Assembly: GCF_024436055.1 (NCBI RefSeq) | Contig: NZ_JANFNH010000001.1 | Span: 1-64,000 of the forward strand | DNA length: 64,000 bases | Source of the DNA: Streptantibioticus rubrisoli | GTDB taxonomy: Bacteria; Actinomycetota; Actinomycetes; Streptomycetales; Streptomycetaceae | Direction: 5' to 3' | Shown: positions 9,381-40,592 of the stretch, piece by piece | How the letters are laid out: every line of letters begins with the position of its first letter | Position numbering within the stretch: position 1 is the first letter of the stretch | The notes under the pieces: model-generated | Database searches by the model: none | Seen by the model: only the letters and a program-made list of their open reading frames with translations | Told to the model about the DNA's origin: nothing | Made by a program: the position numbers and the translations under genes

Positions 9381-10255
9381 GTGGCCGACTCCTGCGGAAC
9401 GAGCGCCGGGGCGGCCTTGGCACGCGCCCGGCGGGGGGTACGGGTACGGGGGCGGCTCGCGGCGGCGAACACCAGCAGCAGCGCCCAGGTCAGCAGCAGG
9501 CTCAACACCGATACCGCCACCGACAGTTGGGCCTGGCTGCCGCCGATGCCCACGATCCACACCGCGAACGGCCGAAAGCCCAGCAGCGCGCCGACGGTGT
9601 ACTCACCGAGCACCAGCGCCAGGGTGAGGAAGCTGGCGTTCATCAGCGCACCGCGCAGATTCGGCAGCACCGCCTGGAACACCGCCCGCACCGGGCTCGC
9701 GCCACAGCTGCGGGCCGCCTCCATCAGGGTACGCACGTCCACCGCGCGCATCCCGGCGTCCAGGGCGCGGTAGGCCAGCGGCAGCGCCATCACGCTGTAG
9801 GCGAGCACCAGCACCACGGGGAAGTCGGCGTTCTGCACCGCCACGAAGGTCTCGAACAGCGGGGTGCGGGACAGGTACTGCGGCCCCCAGCGCAGCACCC
9901 CGCTGTATCCGGCGACCAAGGCCACCGAGGGCACCACCAGCGGCAGCGAGCACACGACCTCCAGCAGCGGCCGCAGCCGGGGCGCGCCGAGCCGCGCCGC
10001 GAGCAGCGCCGGGACCAGCAGCCCCAGCACCAGCACGATGGTCGCGGCGGCCAGCTCCAAGGTGAGCAGCAGGCTGCTGGTGAAACCGCTGGCGCTCAGG
10101 ATGCCGGTGTACGCGCCGAGGGTGAAGCCCCGGCCTGGCACGTCCACGGTGAACAGCACCGAACAGGCCAGTGGCACAAGGAAGTACAGCCCGGCGGCGA
10201 GCGCGACCGCGCCGCGCCACCAGCGGATCCCTCGCCGGTTCGTCAGGCCAGCCAT
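9377..10255 (-). CDS. ABC importer permease 2
   Basis: This 292-residue inner-membrane permease has about six spans and the EAA loop EAARSCGASPVRAVFQAVLP (near residue 190), which docks on the ATPase. It is of the PotC/PhnV-like BPD_transp_1 type. The ATG has AAGGAG seven bases upstream. The gene overlaps the end of permease 1 by 13 bp and the ATPase start by 4 bp, so the whole transporter is translationally chained. Confidence 0.9.
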   Translation of the reverse strand: MAGLTNRRGIRWWRGAVALAAGLYFLVPLACSVLFTVDVPGRGFTLGAYTGILSASGFTSSLLLTLELAAATIVLVLGLLVPALLAARLGAPRLRPLLEVVCSLPLVVPSVALVAGYSGVLRWGPQYLSRTPLFETFVAVQNADFPVVLVLAYSVMALPLAYRALDAGMRAVDVRTLMEAARSCGASPVRAVFQAVLPNLRGALMNASFLTLALVLGEYTVGALLGFRPFAVWIVGIGGSQAQLSVAVSVLSLLLTWALLLVFAAASRPRTRTPRRARAKAAPALVPQESAT

Positions 10256-11184: not shown

Positions 11185-12332
11185 CACGAGACGGCCGCTG
11201 CCCACTTCTCGGTGACGACCTGCTTGGCCTTGTCCGTCTGGCCCGGGGTCGGGAAGCTCGGCGTGCCGCTGACCGCGGCGAGCTTGCCCGCGGCGGCGGT
11301 GTCCAGCGTTCCGGCCTGCTTCATGGCGTCCATCAGGGCGGGGCGGGCGTACCCCTTGAGGAACAGGTTCTGGCCCTCGGCGCTGTAGAGGTACTCCTCC
11401 CACAGCCGGGCCGCCGCCGGGTGCGGTGCGGAGGCGTTGATCGCCTGCGAGTAGTACTGCGAGTACCGGCCGTCGGAGGGGACGGTGACCTGCCAGTCGA
11501 CGCCCTTGCCGCGGAACTCGTCCGCGTAACCGGAGTTGAGGTAGTCCCAGTCGACGCTGATCGGGGTCTCGCCCTTCTGGATGGTCGCCGGGGTGGCCTG
11601 CACCGGGTCGAAGTTGCCAGCCTTCTTCAGCTTGCCGAAGAAGTCGATGCCGGGCTGGATGTCGTCGAACGAGCCGCCGTTCGCCAGCGCCGCCGCGTAC
11701 ACCGCGCCGAACGCGGCACCGGCCTTGGTCGGGTTGCCGTTGAGCGCCACCTGGCCCTTGTACTCGGGCTTGAGCAGATCGGCGAAGGTCTTCGGGCAGT
11801 CCTTGACCCGCTTGGTGTCGCAGCCGATCGAGATGTAGCCGCCGTAGTCGTTGTACCAGCGGGCCTGGCCGTCCTTCTGCGCGGCGGGGATCTTGTCGAA
11901 CCCGGCCACCTTGTAGGCGGCGAACAGCCCCTGCTGTGCGCCGCTGAGCGCGAACGAGGAGCCGAGGTCCACCACGTCGGGGGCGCGGTCCTGGCCCTTG
12001 CGGGAGGTGATCGCGTTCAACTCGTCCTGGCTGGCGCCTTCGGGGTTCTCGTCGTTGACCTTGATGCCGTACTTCTTGGTGAACCCGTCGATGACCGCAC
12101 CGTAGTTGGCCCAGTCGCGGGGGAGCGCGATGGCGTTGAGCGTGCCCTCCTTCTTCGCGGCGGCGACCAGTGCGTCCGTTCCGCCGAAGTCGGCGGCCGA
12201 GGTGGCGGCCGCGGCGCTCTTGCCGCTCGCCGTGGTGCTGGTGGCGGGAGCGGCGCCACAGGCGCTGAGGGTGAGTGCCGTCGTGGCCAGGACGCCCGCG
12301 GCGCCGATGGCTCGGAGTCTGGGCACGTTCAC
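11184..12332 (-). CDS. Extracellular solute-binding lipoprotein of the ABC importer (family 1)
   Basis: This 382-residue lipoprotein has the signal VPRLRAIGAAGVLATTAL with lipobox LSAC. The mature domain begins TDALVAAAKKEGTLNAIALP and includes NENPEGASQDEL-type family-1 binding-protein features, as seen in polyamine, ferric and 2-aminoethylphosphonate binders. The GTG at 12332 is preceded by AAGGAG, which excludes the longer upstream frame. It is the first gene of a five-gene operon (binding protein, permease, permease, ATPase, HAD). A GntR/UTRA regulator is divergent, with a palindrome at 12378-12404 between them. The ligand is unknown; a phosphonate or phosphate ester would suit the HAD partner, but that is inference. 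Confidence 0.88.
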   Translation of the reverse strand: MNVPRLRAIGAAGVLATTALTLSACGAAPATSTTASGKSAAAATSAADFGGTDALVAAAKKEGTLNAIALPRDWANYGAVIDGFTKKYGIKVNDENPEGASQDELNAITSRKGQDRAPDVVDLGSSFALSGAQQGLFAAYKVAGFDKIPAAQKDGQARWYNDYGGYISIGCDTKRVKDCPKTFADLLKPEYKGQVALNGNPTKAGAAFGAVYAAALANGGSFDDIQPGIDFFGKLKKAGNFDPVQATPATIQKGETPISVDWDYLNSGYADEFRGKGVDWQVTVPSDGRYSQYYSQAINASAPHPAAARLWEEYLYSAEGQNLFLKGYARPALMDAMKQAGTLDTAAAGKLAAVSGTPSFPTPGQTDKAKQVVTEKWAAAVS

Positions 12333-12377
12333 TTCGGTCTCCTTGCGAGGTTCTGAGAGGGGGCGGCCAGGTTGGCT

Positions 12378-12404
12378 GTACAACTTGACGCGCCAAGTAG
12401 GTAC
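12378..12404. promoter_or_regulatory. Candidate GntR operator between binding-protein gene and regulator
   Basis: Perfect half-sites ACTTG (12383-12387) and CAAGT (12394-12398) are flanked by outer GTAC tetramers at 12378 and 12401. The whole element is nearly symmetric about 12391. It lies 46-72 bp upstream of the binding-protein start and about 150 bp from the regulator start, where a UTRA-type repressor would control both directions. Confidence 0.55.
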
Positions 12405-12549
12405 GAGCCGGATGGCCGGAAAGTGAACGAGTGGCCGAAATTCGACGAAGGCGACGGGAACGGCCCGATGCTGCCCACAGGTTGCGGTTAGGCTCCCGAT
12501 CACATACGTGGCACACGCACTGATCAGGTGCGCTGGACGTGGGACGGGG

Positions 12550-13305
12550 ATGATCGTGGCGGACGGGCGCCAGGCGATGTACCGGAAGGTCGCCGCCGAA
12601 CTGCGGCAGGGCATATCCGACGGCGCCTACGGCTCCGGCGGCAGGCTCCCCGCCGAGTCCGCGCTCGCGCAGACCTACGGTGTCTCCCGGGGCACCATCC
12701 GGCAGGCCCTCGCCCTGCTGCGCGCCGACGGCCTGGTCACCTCCCGGCGCGGCACCCGCCGGGTGGTGCTGGGCACCGCCAGGGTGCAGACGTTCAGCGA
12801 GACCGTCAGCTTCACCCGCTGGGCGCGCTCGCTGGGCGAGGAGCCCGGCGGCCGGGTGGTGGACGTGGTGCGGCGCGCGGCCGAACCCGTGGAGCGTGAG
12901 AAGCTGCGGCTGGCCGAGGGCGACGAGGTGTGCCTGGTGCTGCGGGTGCGCACCCTGTCCGCGGTGCCGGTGATGGTCGAACGCTCCGTGTACCCACGGC
13001 ACATCGGGGAGATCGTCGCCGGGCTCGACCCGGCCGCCGTCTCGCACACCGTGCCGCTGGAGGAACACGGCGTGCGGTTCACCGACGTGCACCACACCAT
13101 CGATCTGACCTACGCCGACGCGGACGACGCCGCGCTGCTCGACTGCCGTGTCGGTGACGCGCTGCTGCGCGAACGGCGGCGCAGCACCGATCCCACCGGG
13201 ACGCCCGTGGAGTGGTCCGAGGACCGCTACCTGCCGGGTACGGTGGCGTTCACCGTGCACAACTCCTCGGCCGCGGCCGCGCTTTCACGGCGCACCGCTT
13301 CCTGA
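12550..13305 (+). CDS. GntR-family regulator with UTRA ligand domain (HutC/PhnF type)
   Basis: This 251-residue regulator has an N-terminal winged helix (AMYRKVAAELRQGI, then LPAESALAQTYGVSRGTIRQ and ALALLRADGLV at about residues 10-75). A UTRA domain follows (about 95-240) with EVCLVLRVRTL, VMVERSVYP and a final EDRYLPGTVAFTV. UTRA domains bind small metabolites, often sugar phosphates, phosphonates or histidine-pathway compounds. The start could be ATG 12550 or GTG 12556, which has GGGG at better spacing. It is divergent from the ABC importer operon and is its likely regulator. Confidence 0.88.
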   Translation: MIVADGRQAMYRKVAAELRQGISDGAYGSGGRLPAESALAQTYGVSRGTIRQALALLRADGLVTSRRGTRRVVLGTARVQTFSETVSFTRWARSLGEEPGGRVVDVVRRAAEPVEREKLRLAEGDEVCLVLRVRTLSAVPVMVERSVYPRHIGEIVAGLDPAAVSHTVPLEEHGVRFTDVHHTIDLTYADADDAALLDCRVGDALLRERRRSTDPTGTPVEWSEDRYLPGTVAFTVHNSSAAAALSRRTAS

Positions 13306-13312
13306 CGTACCG

Positions 13313-14131
13313 TCAACTCTCGTGCAGCCAGCTCCGCGCCACCTCGGCCAGGGCGTCGGCGGCCCGGCCCCGGGCGGCCGGGTCGTGCCGTACCGAGAAG
13401 CTGTTCTCGACGTGCACGAACGGCACCCCGTCCGCGGCCGCCCGGCGGGCCTGCACGTTCGTGGTGCCCTCCAGGCCGTCGCAGCGCTCCCGCCACACCC
13501 GGCACACCCGGAACCCCTTCTCGTCCAGCAGCCGCGCCGCCCGCCGCACCGCGTCGCCCGGTGGCGCCGGACCCGGTGAGACCACCACGTCGTGCCCGGG
13601 AGCGCTGGCATCGGCGAAACCGTGCACCTGGATCGCGGGCAGTCCGCGTGCCACCAGCGCGTCGCACACCGCGTTGAAGGCGGAGTCCGCCCGGTGCGCC
13701 ACATCCGCGCAGTTCCCCTCGCCCGCCGTGCGCAGCGCACCGGCCAGCACCAGCACCCCGCCCGGCGCCCGGTCGAACAGCTCGGCCGCCAGCAGCCCGG
13801 TGCGCAGGTCGGAGCGCGGATGCGGAGCCTGCACGCTCCAGTGCGCCGGCCGGGTCACATCCACGTACACCCGGCCCCAGCCCCGCCCGGTCCACGCCGT
13901 CTCGCACACCTCCGCCAGCTCACCGGTGGCCCGGCGCAGTCTGCGCACCGTGTAGCCGATCGCCGCCAGCCGCCCGCTCGCCGCCTCGGGCCGCCCGTCG
14001 AGCACCTCAAGCACCCCGGCCGCCAGCGCCGCCCGCTCCGCCCGGTCCGGCACCCGGTAGCCGTCGGCCATCGGAAAGCCCCTGATGAACGCCTGGACGT
14101 GCTGCGCCAGATCGACGGGCTGCGCCGACAC
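13313..14131 (-). CDS. Conserved hypothetical protein with HADS...QVHGF motif
   Basis: This soluble 272-residue protein has no signal peptide or membrane span. Visible conserved-looking segments are VAHRADSAFNAVCDALVA, PAIQVHGFADAS, GHDVVVSPG, GTTNVQARRAA and FVHVENSFSVR. The alternation of His/Asp/Glu in beta-strand contexts is reminiscent of metal-dependent amidases or hydrolases, but I do not recognise the family with certainty. The GTG at 14131 has GGGGGAG just upstream. It is divergent from pcaF and convergent (7 bp) with the GntR gene. Function unassigned. Confidence 0.7.
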   Translation of the reverse strand: MSAQPVDLAQHVQAFIRGFPMADGYRVPDRAERAALAAGVLEVLDGRPEAASGRLAAIGYTVRRLRRATGELAEVCETAWTGRGWGRVYVDVTRPAHWSVQAPHPRSDLRTGLLAAELFDRAPGGVLVLAGALRTAGEGNCADVAHRADSAFNAVCDALVARGLPAIQVHGFADASAPGHDVVVSPGPAPPGDAVRRAARLLDEKGFRVCRVWRERCDGLEGTTNVQARRAAADGVPFVHVENSFSVRHDPAARGRAADALAEVARSWLHES

Positions 14132-33757: not shown

Positions 33758-34747
33758 GTGCAGACACCTCTGGCCTGGCTGGCCGACAGATATTCGCTCA
33801 AGCCGAGAAGTGTCCGGTAAGCGTCACTGGCCTCGGTCGTGGCCAGCATCCTGATCGTCGTCACCGGCGGAGTCGTTCGTCTGACCGGCTCGGGACTCGG
33901 CTGTCCCAAGTGGCCGATGTGCACCGGTGACACGCTGGCCCCCACCGCCGCCATGGGCGTGCACGGCGCGATCGAGTTCAGCAACCGGATACTGACCGGC
34001 GTGCTGTGCGCGGTCGTCGGATGGCTCATCATCGCCGCCCGGTTGCAGAAGGTCTCCATGCCCTCGGTGCTCCGCGGCTCCTGGCTCCAGTTCTGGGTGG
34101 TCGTGCTGAACGCGGTGGTCGGCGGCGTCACCGTCCTGATGCGGCTGAGCCCCTACATCGTGGCGGCGCACTTCCTCGCCGCCATGCTGCTGCTCACGGC
34201 CGCGGTGATCACCTGGGAGCGGGTCCGCCAGCACCAGGTCCCGCCGCGGGAGCCGGCGCCCCCGCCGTCGCGGGTGCGCACCGCCTCGGTGGTGCTGGTG
34301 GCCGCGACGGCCTTGCTGGTCGTGGCGGGAACGCTGGTGACCGGGGCCGGTCCGCATGCGGGGGACTCCTCGGACGTGGCGCGCATGCCTTTCGACTGGA
34401 CGCTCGTCGCGGTCGTCCATGGAGCGCTGGCCGTGGTGGTCCTGGGTGCCGCGGGCTTCATCTGGTCCGCGCTGACCGGGGGCGGTGCCGACAGCGCTCG
34501 CCGGAGGACGGCGTGCTTCCTCGCCGTGGTACTGGCCCAGGGGGCCGTCGGCCTGTGGCAGTCCCTGTCGGGTCTGCCCGGACTGGCCGTCGGCCTGCAC
34601 CTGCTGGGAGCGTCGCTGGTATGGGCCGGTACGCTGCGGGTGTACTGCGCGGTGCGGATGCCGGACTCGGCCGAAGCAGTGGTTGAATTCGAGACCGTAT
34701 CGGACTCCCCGAGCGGTGGCGCGATACCCCATCTCAGCGGCTCCTGA
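33758..34747 (+). pseudogene. ctaA: Heme A synthase (COX15/CtaA) gene with an in-frame TAA near the start
   Basis: From GTG 33758 the frame reads MQTPLAWLADRYSLKPRSVR and then TAA (33818-33820). It continues in the same frame for 308 further codons as ordinary CtaA. That part has the extracytoplasmic Cys pair GLGCPKWPMC, the four heme-ligand histidines (GVHGAIEFSNR, IVAAHFLAAM, AVVHGALAV, VGLHLLGAS) and about eight spans. An intact gene would have a sense codon where the TAA stands. Re-initiation at GTG 33839 would truncate the first span and has no Shine-Dalgarno. It is probably a dead or dying copy, with a functional ctaA elsewhere. Confidence 0.75.
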
Positions 34748-34996: not shown

Positions 34997-36532
34997 ATGG
35001 CTGAAAACGAAGTCGTCGAATACGAGGCGCCTGAGATGCTGGATGGCGCATTTCTCGGTCAACCTTTTCTGGCCAGCGGAACCGCAGTGCTGAAGCAGGC
35101 CTCCGGCGGAACGTGGGTGGTCGCGGACGACTCGCATTCTCGCCTGGTTTCTGCTGAAGCCAGCGCCAGACGCCTTGCGCTCTTCGGTGAGACGGATATC
35201 GAAGTGGGGCGTCTGGCGCGCCTCCTCGAACGCCATGGCAGTGCGCGTGACGTGATGGCCGCCGCACACGAAATACCGGGCAGCTTCCACATCCTCTACA
35301 CTGACGGTCGAACCATGGTCGTCCAGGGAAGTGCTTCCGGCCTTCGCCAGGTGTTCTACGCCAGGCTGGCGGACCACGCCCATGTGGCGTCGGATTCCGT
35401 GGAGTTGCTGGCCCGGCTGTGCGGCGGTGGCCCCCGAATCGAGATGGTCGCATGGGGCATGGTGCACCCGGGTTTCGACTACGGTCTGACCGAGGGCACC
35501 TACTGGAAGGGCGTCCGTCGGCTCCCCGCCGACCAGCGCCTCCACCTCACCGGCGATCGTGTCGAACGCTCCACCTGGTGGAGCCCACCGGTGCCAGCGC
35601 TGTCGATCGCGGAAGGCGCGCCCGGGCTGCGGTCCGCGCTCGACGAAGCGGTGGCCGTCCGGGTCGGCACGGCCCGGGGCCTGTCCGCGGACCTGTCCGG
35701 GGGCATGGACTCCACTTCGCTCTGCTTTCTGCTGGCCGAGCAGGGAGCGCGGTTCCAGGCGTTCGTCGAGCAGACCATCGATCCCAACCACGACGACGCG
35801 CGATGGGCGGCCATCGCCGCTCGGGAGATGGATCGGGAACTGACGGTCCTCCAGCCGGACGACATACCGGGGCCCTACGACGGCATCTGGGAACGCGATG
35901 AAGGACTGGTCCAGACGGTTCCCTACGGGCTCGGTGAGCCGTACACGCTGATCCGCAACCGGGCACGCAAGGCCGCCATGTCAAAGCTGTTCGCGGCGAC
36001 CGGTGCGACGGTCCACATCGGCGGCTTCGGCGGCGACGAGTTGTTCACCGTGCCACCGTCGTACTTCAGTGATCTGTACGCGAGTTCACCCCTCAAGGCG
36101 ATCCGGGGCATCCGCGACCTCGCCCGTCTGCGCCGGTGGAGCCTGAAGAGTGTGCTGCGGTCACTCGCACGCCAGCAGTCGTACCGGGGTTGGTTCGAGG
36201 AGCAGTTGCGCGACTTGCGTCTGCCCCGGCCGGACACCCTCGGGCCCACCGTCAACTGGGGCCCGCCGCTGCGGGTGACTCCATGGTCCACACCGGTCAA
36301 CGTCGAGGCGATCAGGTCGTTGGCCCGCGCCGAGGACGCCGCCTGCCGGCCACAGGCCCCCAGCCGTGCGGCGCACACCTGCATCGCCGGCCAACGGATC
36401 GGCGGCCAGCGGCTGGGACCGCTGCGAGCGCTCATGCAGCACCAGGGTGTCACGCTCTCGCTGCCGTACATGGACGACAAGGTCCTCGAAGCCGCGCTGG
36501 CCATCTCGCGCGCCGAAGCGCTGCCAGCCTGG
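34997..36532 (+). pseudogene. Lasso-type macrolactam cyclase (asparagine synthetase-like), C-terminally truncated
   Basis: This frame has an N-terminal glutaminase-like half without a catalytic Cys at position 2 (MAENEVVEY). An asparagine synthetase-type ATP-binding half follows, with the PP-loop LSGGMDSTSLCFLL, GGFGGDELFTVPP and PYMDDKVLEAALAI. This matches cyclases that activate an Asp/Glu side chain of a RiPP precursor (lasso, albusnodin-like). Homology stops at about codon 512 (LPAW, 36521-36532). The last ~80 residues expected, including the conserved Lys region, are missing, and the frame runs on out of register to 36784. ATG 34997 has GGAGGGGGG upstream; GTG 34988 is possible. Probably inactive unless the junction is an error. 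Confidence 0.75.
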
Positions 36533-37563
36533 GAGAACTCCTCGAACTGGGGCCGGACTTCGCAGCGTCGGCCGAGCAGAACGTCATGGCGCTTTTCGGC
36601 GCTTGGGGGCACCGCCGCGCACGCGGCATCGAGGAGTCCGAACAAGCGCGGCGCGGCGCCCCGTTCGAGTACTCGCTGGTGCTCAGCGGCGATCGCGTCG
36701 ACGTACGATTGTTCTTCCGGCCGCTGGCCGCCGAAGGGGCCACCGACGCCGACGCCAGCTGGGAGCAGGGCTGGCGGACTCTGACCCGTCTCGAACAGCG
36801 TGACCGCGCGCATCTGGAGCGCGCCCGCGGCCTCGGTGACCTCTTCCGCCCGCGCAGTCGGCAGGCGGCGTTCGGGCTGTGCCTGGCGGCGTCGGTGCAG
36901 CCGCTCACGGTCGGCCGCGTCAAGGTGTACTTCGACACCCTGGCGGCGGGCACGGAACGAAACCGGCAGGTGCTCGCGGAGGCATTGAACCGGATCGGCC
37001 TTGGCGCCGCATGGAGTTGGCTGCAAGAGCACGACCCGGCGGGCATGACCCACCTCATGCCCGCCTTCTTCGCCCTTGACGTCGACGGTTCGCCCGACGC
37101 CAGGGTCAAGTTCTACACAACTGTGGCGGAACGGTCCGCCAGCCAACTCGCCGCACGCCTGGCCCCGTTCTCCGACACCGCCCGACGCACCGCCGCCGGG
37201 TTCCTGGAAAACACGGCGGTAGACGCGGCGGAAGCACTCGCGCAACCGGGAGTCCGACCGACACTGTGCTGGAGCATGACCGCGCGATGCCACCATCGTC
37301 CCGTTGACGCGACGCTGTACCTGCCCTTCAACCAGTACGCACCCGAGGGCGGGCAGACCCTCGGTCGGCTACGGAAGACGCTCGCGCCACGTCACTTCCG
37401 CGCGATCGAGCGCCTGGTCACCCGGCACGCGGCCGTGGTGCCGCCCAACGAGCCGGAAAACCCGTTCCATTGGGCGGCCACGAAGCTCGTCAGGGACCGC
37501 GAGTCCTTGACCCTCTACATCTCAGCGGCCGCCGTGGACGCCGCGCGAACGGCTGGGCACTGA
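36529..37563 (+). CDS. DMATS-type aromatic (indole) prenyltransferase, 5' end disturbed
   Basis: About 345 codons match bacterial tryptophan dimethylallyltransferase-like enzymes. Matches include SLGELLELGPDFAAS, APFEYSLVLSG, GRVKVYFDTLAAGTE, DARVKFYTTVAERSAS, VDATLYLPFNQYAPEGGQ and the end SLTLYISAAAVD. The repeated strand-Lys/Tyr pattern (KVYFD, KFY, LYLPF, LYI) is the ABBA-barrel diphosphate shield. The frame starts abruptly at 36529, exactly where cyclase homology ends one frame away. The first in-frame ATG is 36586, which would cost about 19 residues, and no Shine-Dalgarno fits. It would add a dimethylallyl or larger prenyl group to an aromatic residue. Next to a RiPP cyclase, a prenylated peptide is a natural inference. 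Confidence 0.75.
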   Translation: MGELLELGPDFAASAEQNVMALFGAWGHRRARGIEESEQARRGAPFEYSLVLSGDRVDVRLFFRPLAAEGATDADASWEQGWRTLTRLEQRDRAHLERARGLGDLFRPRSRQAAFGLCLAASVQPLTVGRVKVYFDTLAAGTERNRQVLAEALNRIGLGAAWSWLQEHDPAGMTHLMPAFFALDVDGSPDARVKFYTTVAERSASQLAARLAPFSDTARRTAAGFLENTAVDAAEALAQPGVRPTLCWSMTARCHHRPVDATLYLPFNQYAPEGGQTLGRLRKTLAPRHFRAIERLVTRHAAVVPPNEPENPFHWAATKLVRDRESLTLYISAAAVDAARTAGH

Positions 37564-37656: not shown

Positions 37657-39900
<2,244 letters not shown>

Positions 39901-40181: not shown

Positions 40182-40592
40182 ATGAGCGACCTGCTGGAGC
40201 GACTGCGAGGGCGCGGCTGGCGGATGACCTCCCAGCGGCGTGTCGTTGCGGAGGTCCTCGACGGCGACCACGTGCACCTCACCGCCGACGAGGTGCACGC
40301 CCGCGCGGCACGGCGGCTGCCCGAGATCTCCCGGGCGACCGTCTACAACACCCTGGGCGAGCTGGTCTCCCTCGGTGAGGTCGCGGAGGTCTCCACCGAC
40401 GGCCGCGCCAAGCGCTACGACCCCAACGCACACCACCCGCACCAGCACCTGGTCTGCTCCCACTGCGGCACCATCCGCGATGTCCACCCGACCGGCGACC
40501 CGCTGGCCCACCTGCCGACAGCGGAACGGTTCGGCTTCACGGTGTCCAAGGCCGAGGTCACCTACCGGGGACTGTGCCCGGACTGCGCGTAG
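40182..40592 (+). CDS. Fur-family peroxide-type repressor (CatR/PerR/FurA-like)
   Basis: This 136-residue regulator has a winged helix (RMTSQRRVVAEVLDGD, ADEVHARAARRLPEISRATVYNTL) and a dimerisation/metal domain. It carries the His-rich AHHPHQHLVCSHCG, with CxxC, and a second CPDC at the C-terminus, which together make a Zn(Cys)4 site. PerR/CatR-type repressors use Fe(II)/Mn(II) to sense H2O2. Its position opposite katG and the shared palindrome argue for catalase-peroxidase control and autoregulation. ATG 40182 is used. Confidence 0.9.
   Translation: MSDLLERLRGRGWRMTSQRRVVAEVLDGDHVHLTADEVHARAARRLPEISRATVYNTLGELVSLGEVAEVSTDGRAKRYDPNAHHPHQHLVCSHCGTIRDVHPTGDPLAHLPTAERFGFTVSKAEVTYRGLCPDCA

Follow-up and report, generated by a model that had tools for sequence, protein, structure and literature searches.

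A lasso-type cyclase abutting a DMATS prenyltransferase in Streptantibioticus rubrisoli: a probable relic of a prenylated lasso-peptide cluster

In the 64,000-nucleotide stretch of Streptantibioticus rubrisoli DNA analysed here (the window), a lasso-type macrolactam cyclase runs directly into a DMATS aromatic prenyltransferase. The locus is very probably a decayed copy (pseudogene) of a prenylated lasso-peptide cluster. Compared with intact loci in Streptomyces it carries three separate lesions, one nonsense mutation and two deletions, and because the core peptide has been deleted the window genome yields no such product. The odd fusion is explained as gene decay, and not as a new enzyme architecture. 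The locus comprises the following features:

33758..34747, plus strand: CtaA/COX15-like gene, a cluster-specific paralogue (68% identity to its positional counterpart in S. iakyrus; PF02628, E=3e-28)
34997..35041, plus strand: lasso precursor remnant, leader MAENEVVEYEAPEML (13/15 residues identical to the S. iakyrus leader)
35042..36526, plus strand: cyclase (C protein) remnant (NF033561, 4e-47; 77% identity to S. iakyrus over 500 aa by alignment)
36527..36528, no strand: deletion junction (~2.07 kb absent; coordinates from the L009/L010 comparison, see below)
36529..37563, plus strand: DMATS aromatic prenyltransferase remnant (TIGR03429, PF11991; 60% identity to S. iakyrus; fold model)

The cyclase-prenyltransferase junction

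The junction is real. The cyclase-family match ends at 36526 and the DMATS match begins at 36529, shifted by one frame and lacking an initial start codon (frame read directly), as the preliminary description had it. Starting at ATG 34997, the cyclase frame (34997-36535) runs for 513 codons without a stop, and in profile searches it matches the albusnodin/ikarugamycin macrolactam cyclase model NF033561 (E=4e-47) as well as PF00733 (E=2e-19). The PPi-loop SGGMDS is retained, while the PF00733 match halts at profile position 254 of 354, leaving the last 100 positions of the synthetase domain absent. As a query against PDB sequences the cyclase gave no matches.

The DMATS frame (36535-37560) scores below the cut-off of TIGR03429 (E=2e-11, 44 bits, cut-off 163.85) and above that of PF11991 (E=9e-7, 29 bits, cut-off 25). 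In a PDB sequence search it matches solved indole prenyltransferases (4yl7, 7.5e-15; IptA, 4e-13), and the predicted model of the remnant (pLDDT 66, pTM 0.70) resembles 6zs0 and 5inj (best E 2.4e-10), its fold matches being the 5-dimethylallyltryptophan synthase of S. coelicolor, PriB and IptA. Judged by sequence and modelled fold, the remnant is a member of the DMATS family. The assignments first made from the letters of the DNA, a RiPP-type cyclase and a DMATS enzyme, were thus borne out by NF033561 and PF00733 for the one and by TIGR03429, PF11991, PDB matches and predicted structure for the other.

Could the two frames be joined into a single enzyme by frameshifting? This was rejected: there is no start, the synthetase domain is truncated, and the junction DNA folds no better than shuffled sequences. 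A scan for promoters and terminators found nothing.

Intact loci in Streptomyces

A scan of genome contigs recovered two loci whose cyclase is 75-77% identical to that of the window, in S. iakyrus NRRL ISP-5482 (L009) and S. katrae NRRL B-16271 (L010). The gene order is the same in both: a CtaA/COX15-like gene, precursor A, cyclase C, B1, B2, a PhyH oxygenase and DMATS, where B1 is PqqD-like (RRE) and B2 is a transglutaminase-like leader peptidase. The preliminary description had proposed looking in relatives for the cyclase beside a DMATS protein, with short genes ahead of the cyclase and B1, B2 and transporter genes; all of these, the precursor being the short gene, were found in the two loci but for a transporter, of which none was seen.

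The window taken alone shows just two adjacent enzyme remnants, so that cyclase and DMATS might come from different pathways and have been joined by a chance rearrangement. This is contradicted by L009 and L010, where the same two genes (77% and 60% identical to those of the window) bracket B1, B2 and PhyH, and we give the idea almost no credence.

As intact counterparts of the decayed cluster, both loci encode a complete set of lasso components. The L009 precursor has 40 residues, leader MIENEIVEYEAPEMLPVGEFSELTM and core WYGWASNDGEGVAII; in the L010 core, T replaces V. The leader is of the YxxPxL type (YEAPEML) with a penultimate Thr (GEFSELTM/WYGWASND), and if the core starts at W, D8 would provide the Asp/Glu at core position 7-9. 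By the NCBI curated lasso cut-offs, the leader (NF033521, lasso_leader_L3; 20.9 bits, cut-off 19), B1 (NF033530; 73.3 bits, cut-off 70) and B2 (NF033537; 97.6 bits, cut-off 33) all qualify. PhyH (PF05721) and DMATS (PF11991), judged by Pfam cut-offs, exceed them, and the S. iakyrus cyclase, of the asparagine-synthetase type, spans the full length of PF00733. The two strains offer intact clusters in which to study the prenylated lasso peptide.

Directly downstream of the S. iakyrus DMATS (L009 15235-19596, minus strand) lie mevalonate-pathway genes, namely KASIII-like, HMG-CoA synthase, HMG-CoA reductase and type 2 IPP isomerase genes. It is possible that they provide the prenyl supply or that they belong to a separate cluster; neither S. 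katrae nor the window genome has HMG-CoA reductase.

Three lesions in the window copy

The first lesion is a TAA at 33818-33820, codon 21 of the CtaA-like gene counted from GTG 33758 (read directly); past it, the gene is still open from GTG 33839. The second, a deletion of ~155 bp (L009 coordinates 9858-10012), joins the precursor leader to the cyclase in the same frame, at the cost of the remaining leader, the entire core peptide, the spacer and ~13 cyclase codons. The precursor remnant keeps its Y..P..L motif. The third is the absence of ~2.07 kb between the cyclase residues LP and DMATS residue 22 (L009 11501-13577; L010 about 11495-13562). This loss covers the C-terminal end of the cyclase, all of B1, B2 and PhyH, and the start of DMATS. 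The cyclase remnant is accordingly without its first ~13 residues and without the C-terminal ~95 conserved residues and variable tail, and the DMATS remnant without its first ~21 residues. Core, B1 and B2, which a lasso cluster requires, are missing from the window copy, as is PhyH from the locus.

The preliminary description had taken the cyclase to be intact as far as LPAW, which ends at 36532. This placed the junction correctly to within two codons, but residues 1-15 (34997-35041) are precursor leader; no precursor was found upstream of 34997, the leader being the start of the supposed cyclase itself. Both protein ends are indeed missing, although the true loss also takes in B1, B2 and PhyH. 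Between the deletion and the frame error that had been offered as causes, deletion stands. A simple frame error does not, because three separate lesions hit the locus, one of them deleting the core peptide; a frame error alone is ruled out by the ~2.07 kb of the relatives' DNA that is missing in place of one base.

Might the strain nevertheless hold an intact cluster, two stretches of which were collapsed or dropped in assembly? The genome is a draft of 103 contigs, and the cyclase and DMATS frames are still open and constrained. However, the three lesions differ in kind, one being a point nonsense mutation in the neighbouring CtaA-like gene, and the ~155 bp deletion gives an exact in-frame fusion. 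The junctions are also internal to a contig of 673 kb, no PhyH copy occurs elsewhere in the genome, and relics occur in other genomes too. An assembly artefact is therefore considered very unlikely.

Less probable still is a functional shortened system, in which both the leader-cyclase fusion and the DMATS lacking its head would be made, for example by way of frameshifting or internal starts, and would work on another peptide. The in-frame leader, the lack of accumulated stops and the additional B2 genes of this genome, one adjoining an asparagine-synthetase-type gene, would fit such a system. They have to be set against a cyclase with an incomplete synthetase domain, a DMATS that is startless and in another frame, and the fact that no core peptide remains.

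The decay of the cluster does not seem to be old. Compared with the intact relatives, the cyclase remnant gives dN 0.15-0.18 and dS 0.6-0.8 (NG86) and 41 residues are private to it (33 and 44 in those relatives); no further stops occur in the two remaining coding stretches (cyclase and DMATS). The constraint on the cyclase remnant looks normal and it evolves no faster than the intact copies, which counts against decay unless it is recent; the cluster was probably lost recently in the window genome.

A CtaA paralogue specific to the cluster

A CtaA-like gene lies directly upstream in all three loci (window 33758-34747, L009 8413-9558, L010 8589-9638), and all three genomes encode, in addition, a second CtaA at a separate place. 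Among 24 other sampled genomes of the family, 22 have a single CtaA match; of the remaining two, one has its gene broken into two pieces and the other a second match that lies under the cut-off. In the tree the cluster copies group as a single clade (100/100) on a long stem (1.11), apart from the housekeeping copies, and they retain the histidines and the glutamate that are conserved in the family.

When a biosynthetic cluster contains a second copy of a housekeeping enzyme, this is often a sign of self-resistance, and the dedicated paralogue is a candidate for such a gene, which gives a concrete hypothesis on the target of this prenylated lasso family. We tentatively suggest, though the odds are against it, that the CtaA (heme A synthase)-like protein is a resistant duplicate of the target of the peptide, in which case peptides of this family would block either the synthesis of heme A or the assembly of cytochrome aa3. 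If so, the window strain would be one in which the peptide is already gone and the immunity gene is decaying. In the lasso-peptide literature searched, no link between lasso peptides and CtaA was found, the one match being unrelated.

Relics in other genomes and neighbouring genes

A DMATS of the same type (E<=1e-25) occurs in only 3 of 395 genomes of the family of the window organism: the window genome, a second of the same genus (G001) and one of another genus (G247). G001 retains only the C-terminus of the DMATS, and G247 a broken PhyH adjoining a broken DMATS; both have one CtaA each. Every copy in this sample is a relic, the intact copies being the two Streptomyces loci. The 40-aa precursor gave no matches in the 395 genomes, in a search without a positive control, and a plasmid search gave a single distant match, in Calothrix.

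The C-terminal half of the G001 DMATS (L011 13003-13566; G001:C33 about 603002-603565) lies among unrelated genes, in a setting unlike that of the window. The G247 relic occupies L019 9351-10605 (G247:C1 about 496350-497605), and just upstream of it (L019 8068-9021) is a gene that by eye is hemC-like, a second heme-related neighbour.

In the window genome (G000), no PhyH copy was found outside the locus either. The only lasso B2 homologues are at G000:C93:103944-105864 and G000:C35:9531-9893, both distant (48-52%); the C93 homologue adjoins an asparagine-synthetase-type gene and probably marks another lasso cluster. An Asn_synthase fragment at C16:95150 was rejected as unrelated, its ORF reading as what we take to be QueC. 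Just downstream of the relic, as read by eye from the translations, lie a katG-like catalase-peroxidase (37657-39876, minus strand) and a Fur-family regulator (40182-40592, plus strand).

Proposed biosynthesis in the intact family

The core of the relatives, WYGWASNDGEGVAII, appears to be of the wygwalassin type, a name that fits the WYGWA start. Harris et al. (2024, Biochemistry 63:865) reportedly described wygwalassin as a Trp-prenylated lasso peptide, said to carry 5-dimethylallyl-Trp and 2,3-didehydro-Tyr.

From its gene content, the intact cluster seems equipped to make a prenylated lasso peptide, with prenylation site, ring size and oxidation as predictions. B1 would bind the YxxPxxL leader and B2 would cleave after Thr-Met. 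Cyclase C could then link the Trp1 amine to the Asp8 side chain, giving an 8-residue ring with the tail threaded. PhyH may oxidise a residue, which on the model of wygwalassin would be Tyr2, and DMATS, with transfer from DMAPP to an indole as its predicted activity, would move a dimethylallyl group onto a Trp of the folded lasso.

Comparison with known systems

The closest family model for the cyclase is that of the albusnodin/ikarugamycin cyclases (NF033561; 4e-47 for the window, 1e-64 for S. iakyrus). However, both scores (161 and 219 bits) are below the curated cut-off of 300, which places these cyclases outside the core of the subfamily. The DMATS remnant resembles the 5-dimethylallyltryptophan synthase of S. 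coelicolor, PriB, IptA and MpnD in family and fold (7.5e-15 by sequence, 2.4e-10 by fold). These bacterial indole prenyltransferases take free Trp or small indole compounds as their substrates, whereas the window DMATS sits in a peptide cluster.

The apparent likeness to wygwalassin would lie in the WYGWA start of the cores encoded by L009 and L010, WYGWASNDGEGVAII and its V-to-T variant, next to PhyH and DMATS genes; the 5-dimethylallyl-Trp and didehydro-Tyr would fit this core and the PhyH gene. The window copy differs in that core, B1, B2 and PhyH are gone and C and DMATS are incomplete.

The preliminary description knew of no described pairing of this kind, which did not hold up: Trp prenylation of lasso peptides is already in the literature (PMC13352647; PMC12715784; Harris et al., 2024; Shi et al., 2025). 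A 2026 review includes it in its list of lasso modifications known so far and places prenylation with the steps that follow formation of the interlocked fold (PMC13352647). Collinodin, cited there (Shi et al., 2025, ACS Catal 15:6628), is by its title a lasso peptide that undergoes iterative oxidative and prenylation modifications. Prenylated lasso peptides were thus described in 2024-2025, and the window copy is a defunct representative of a cluster type that had already been published.
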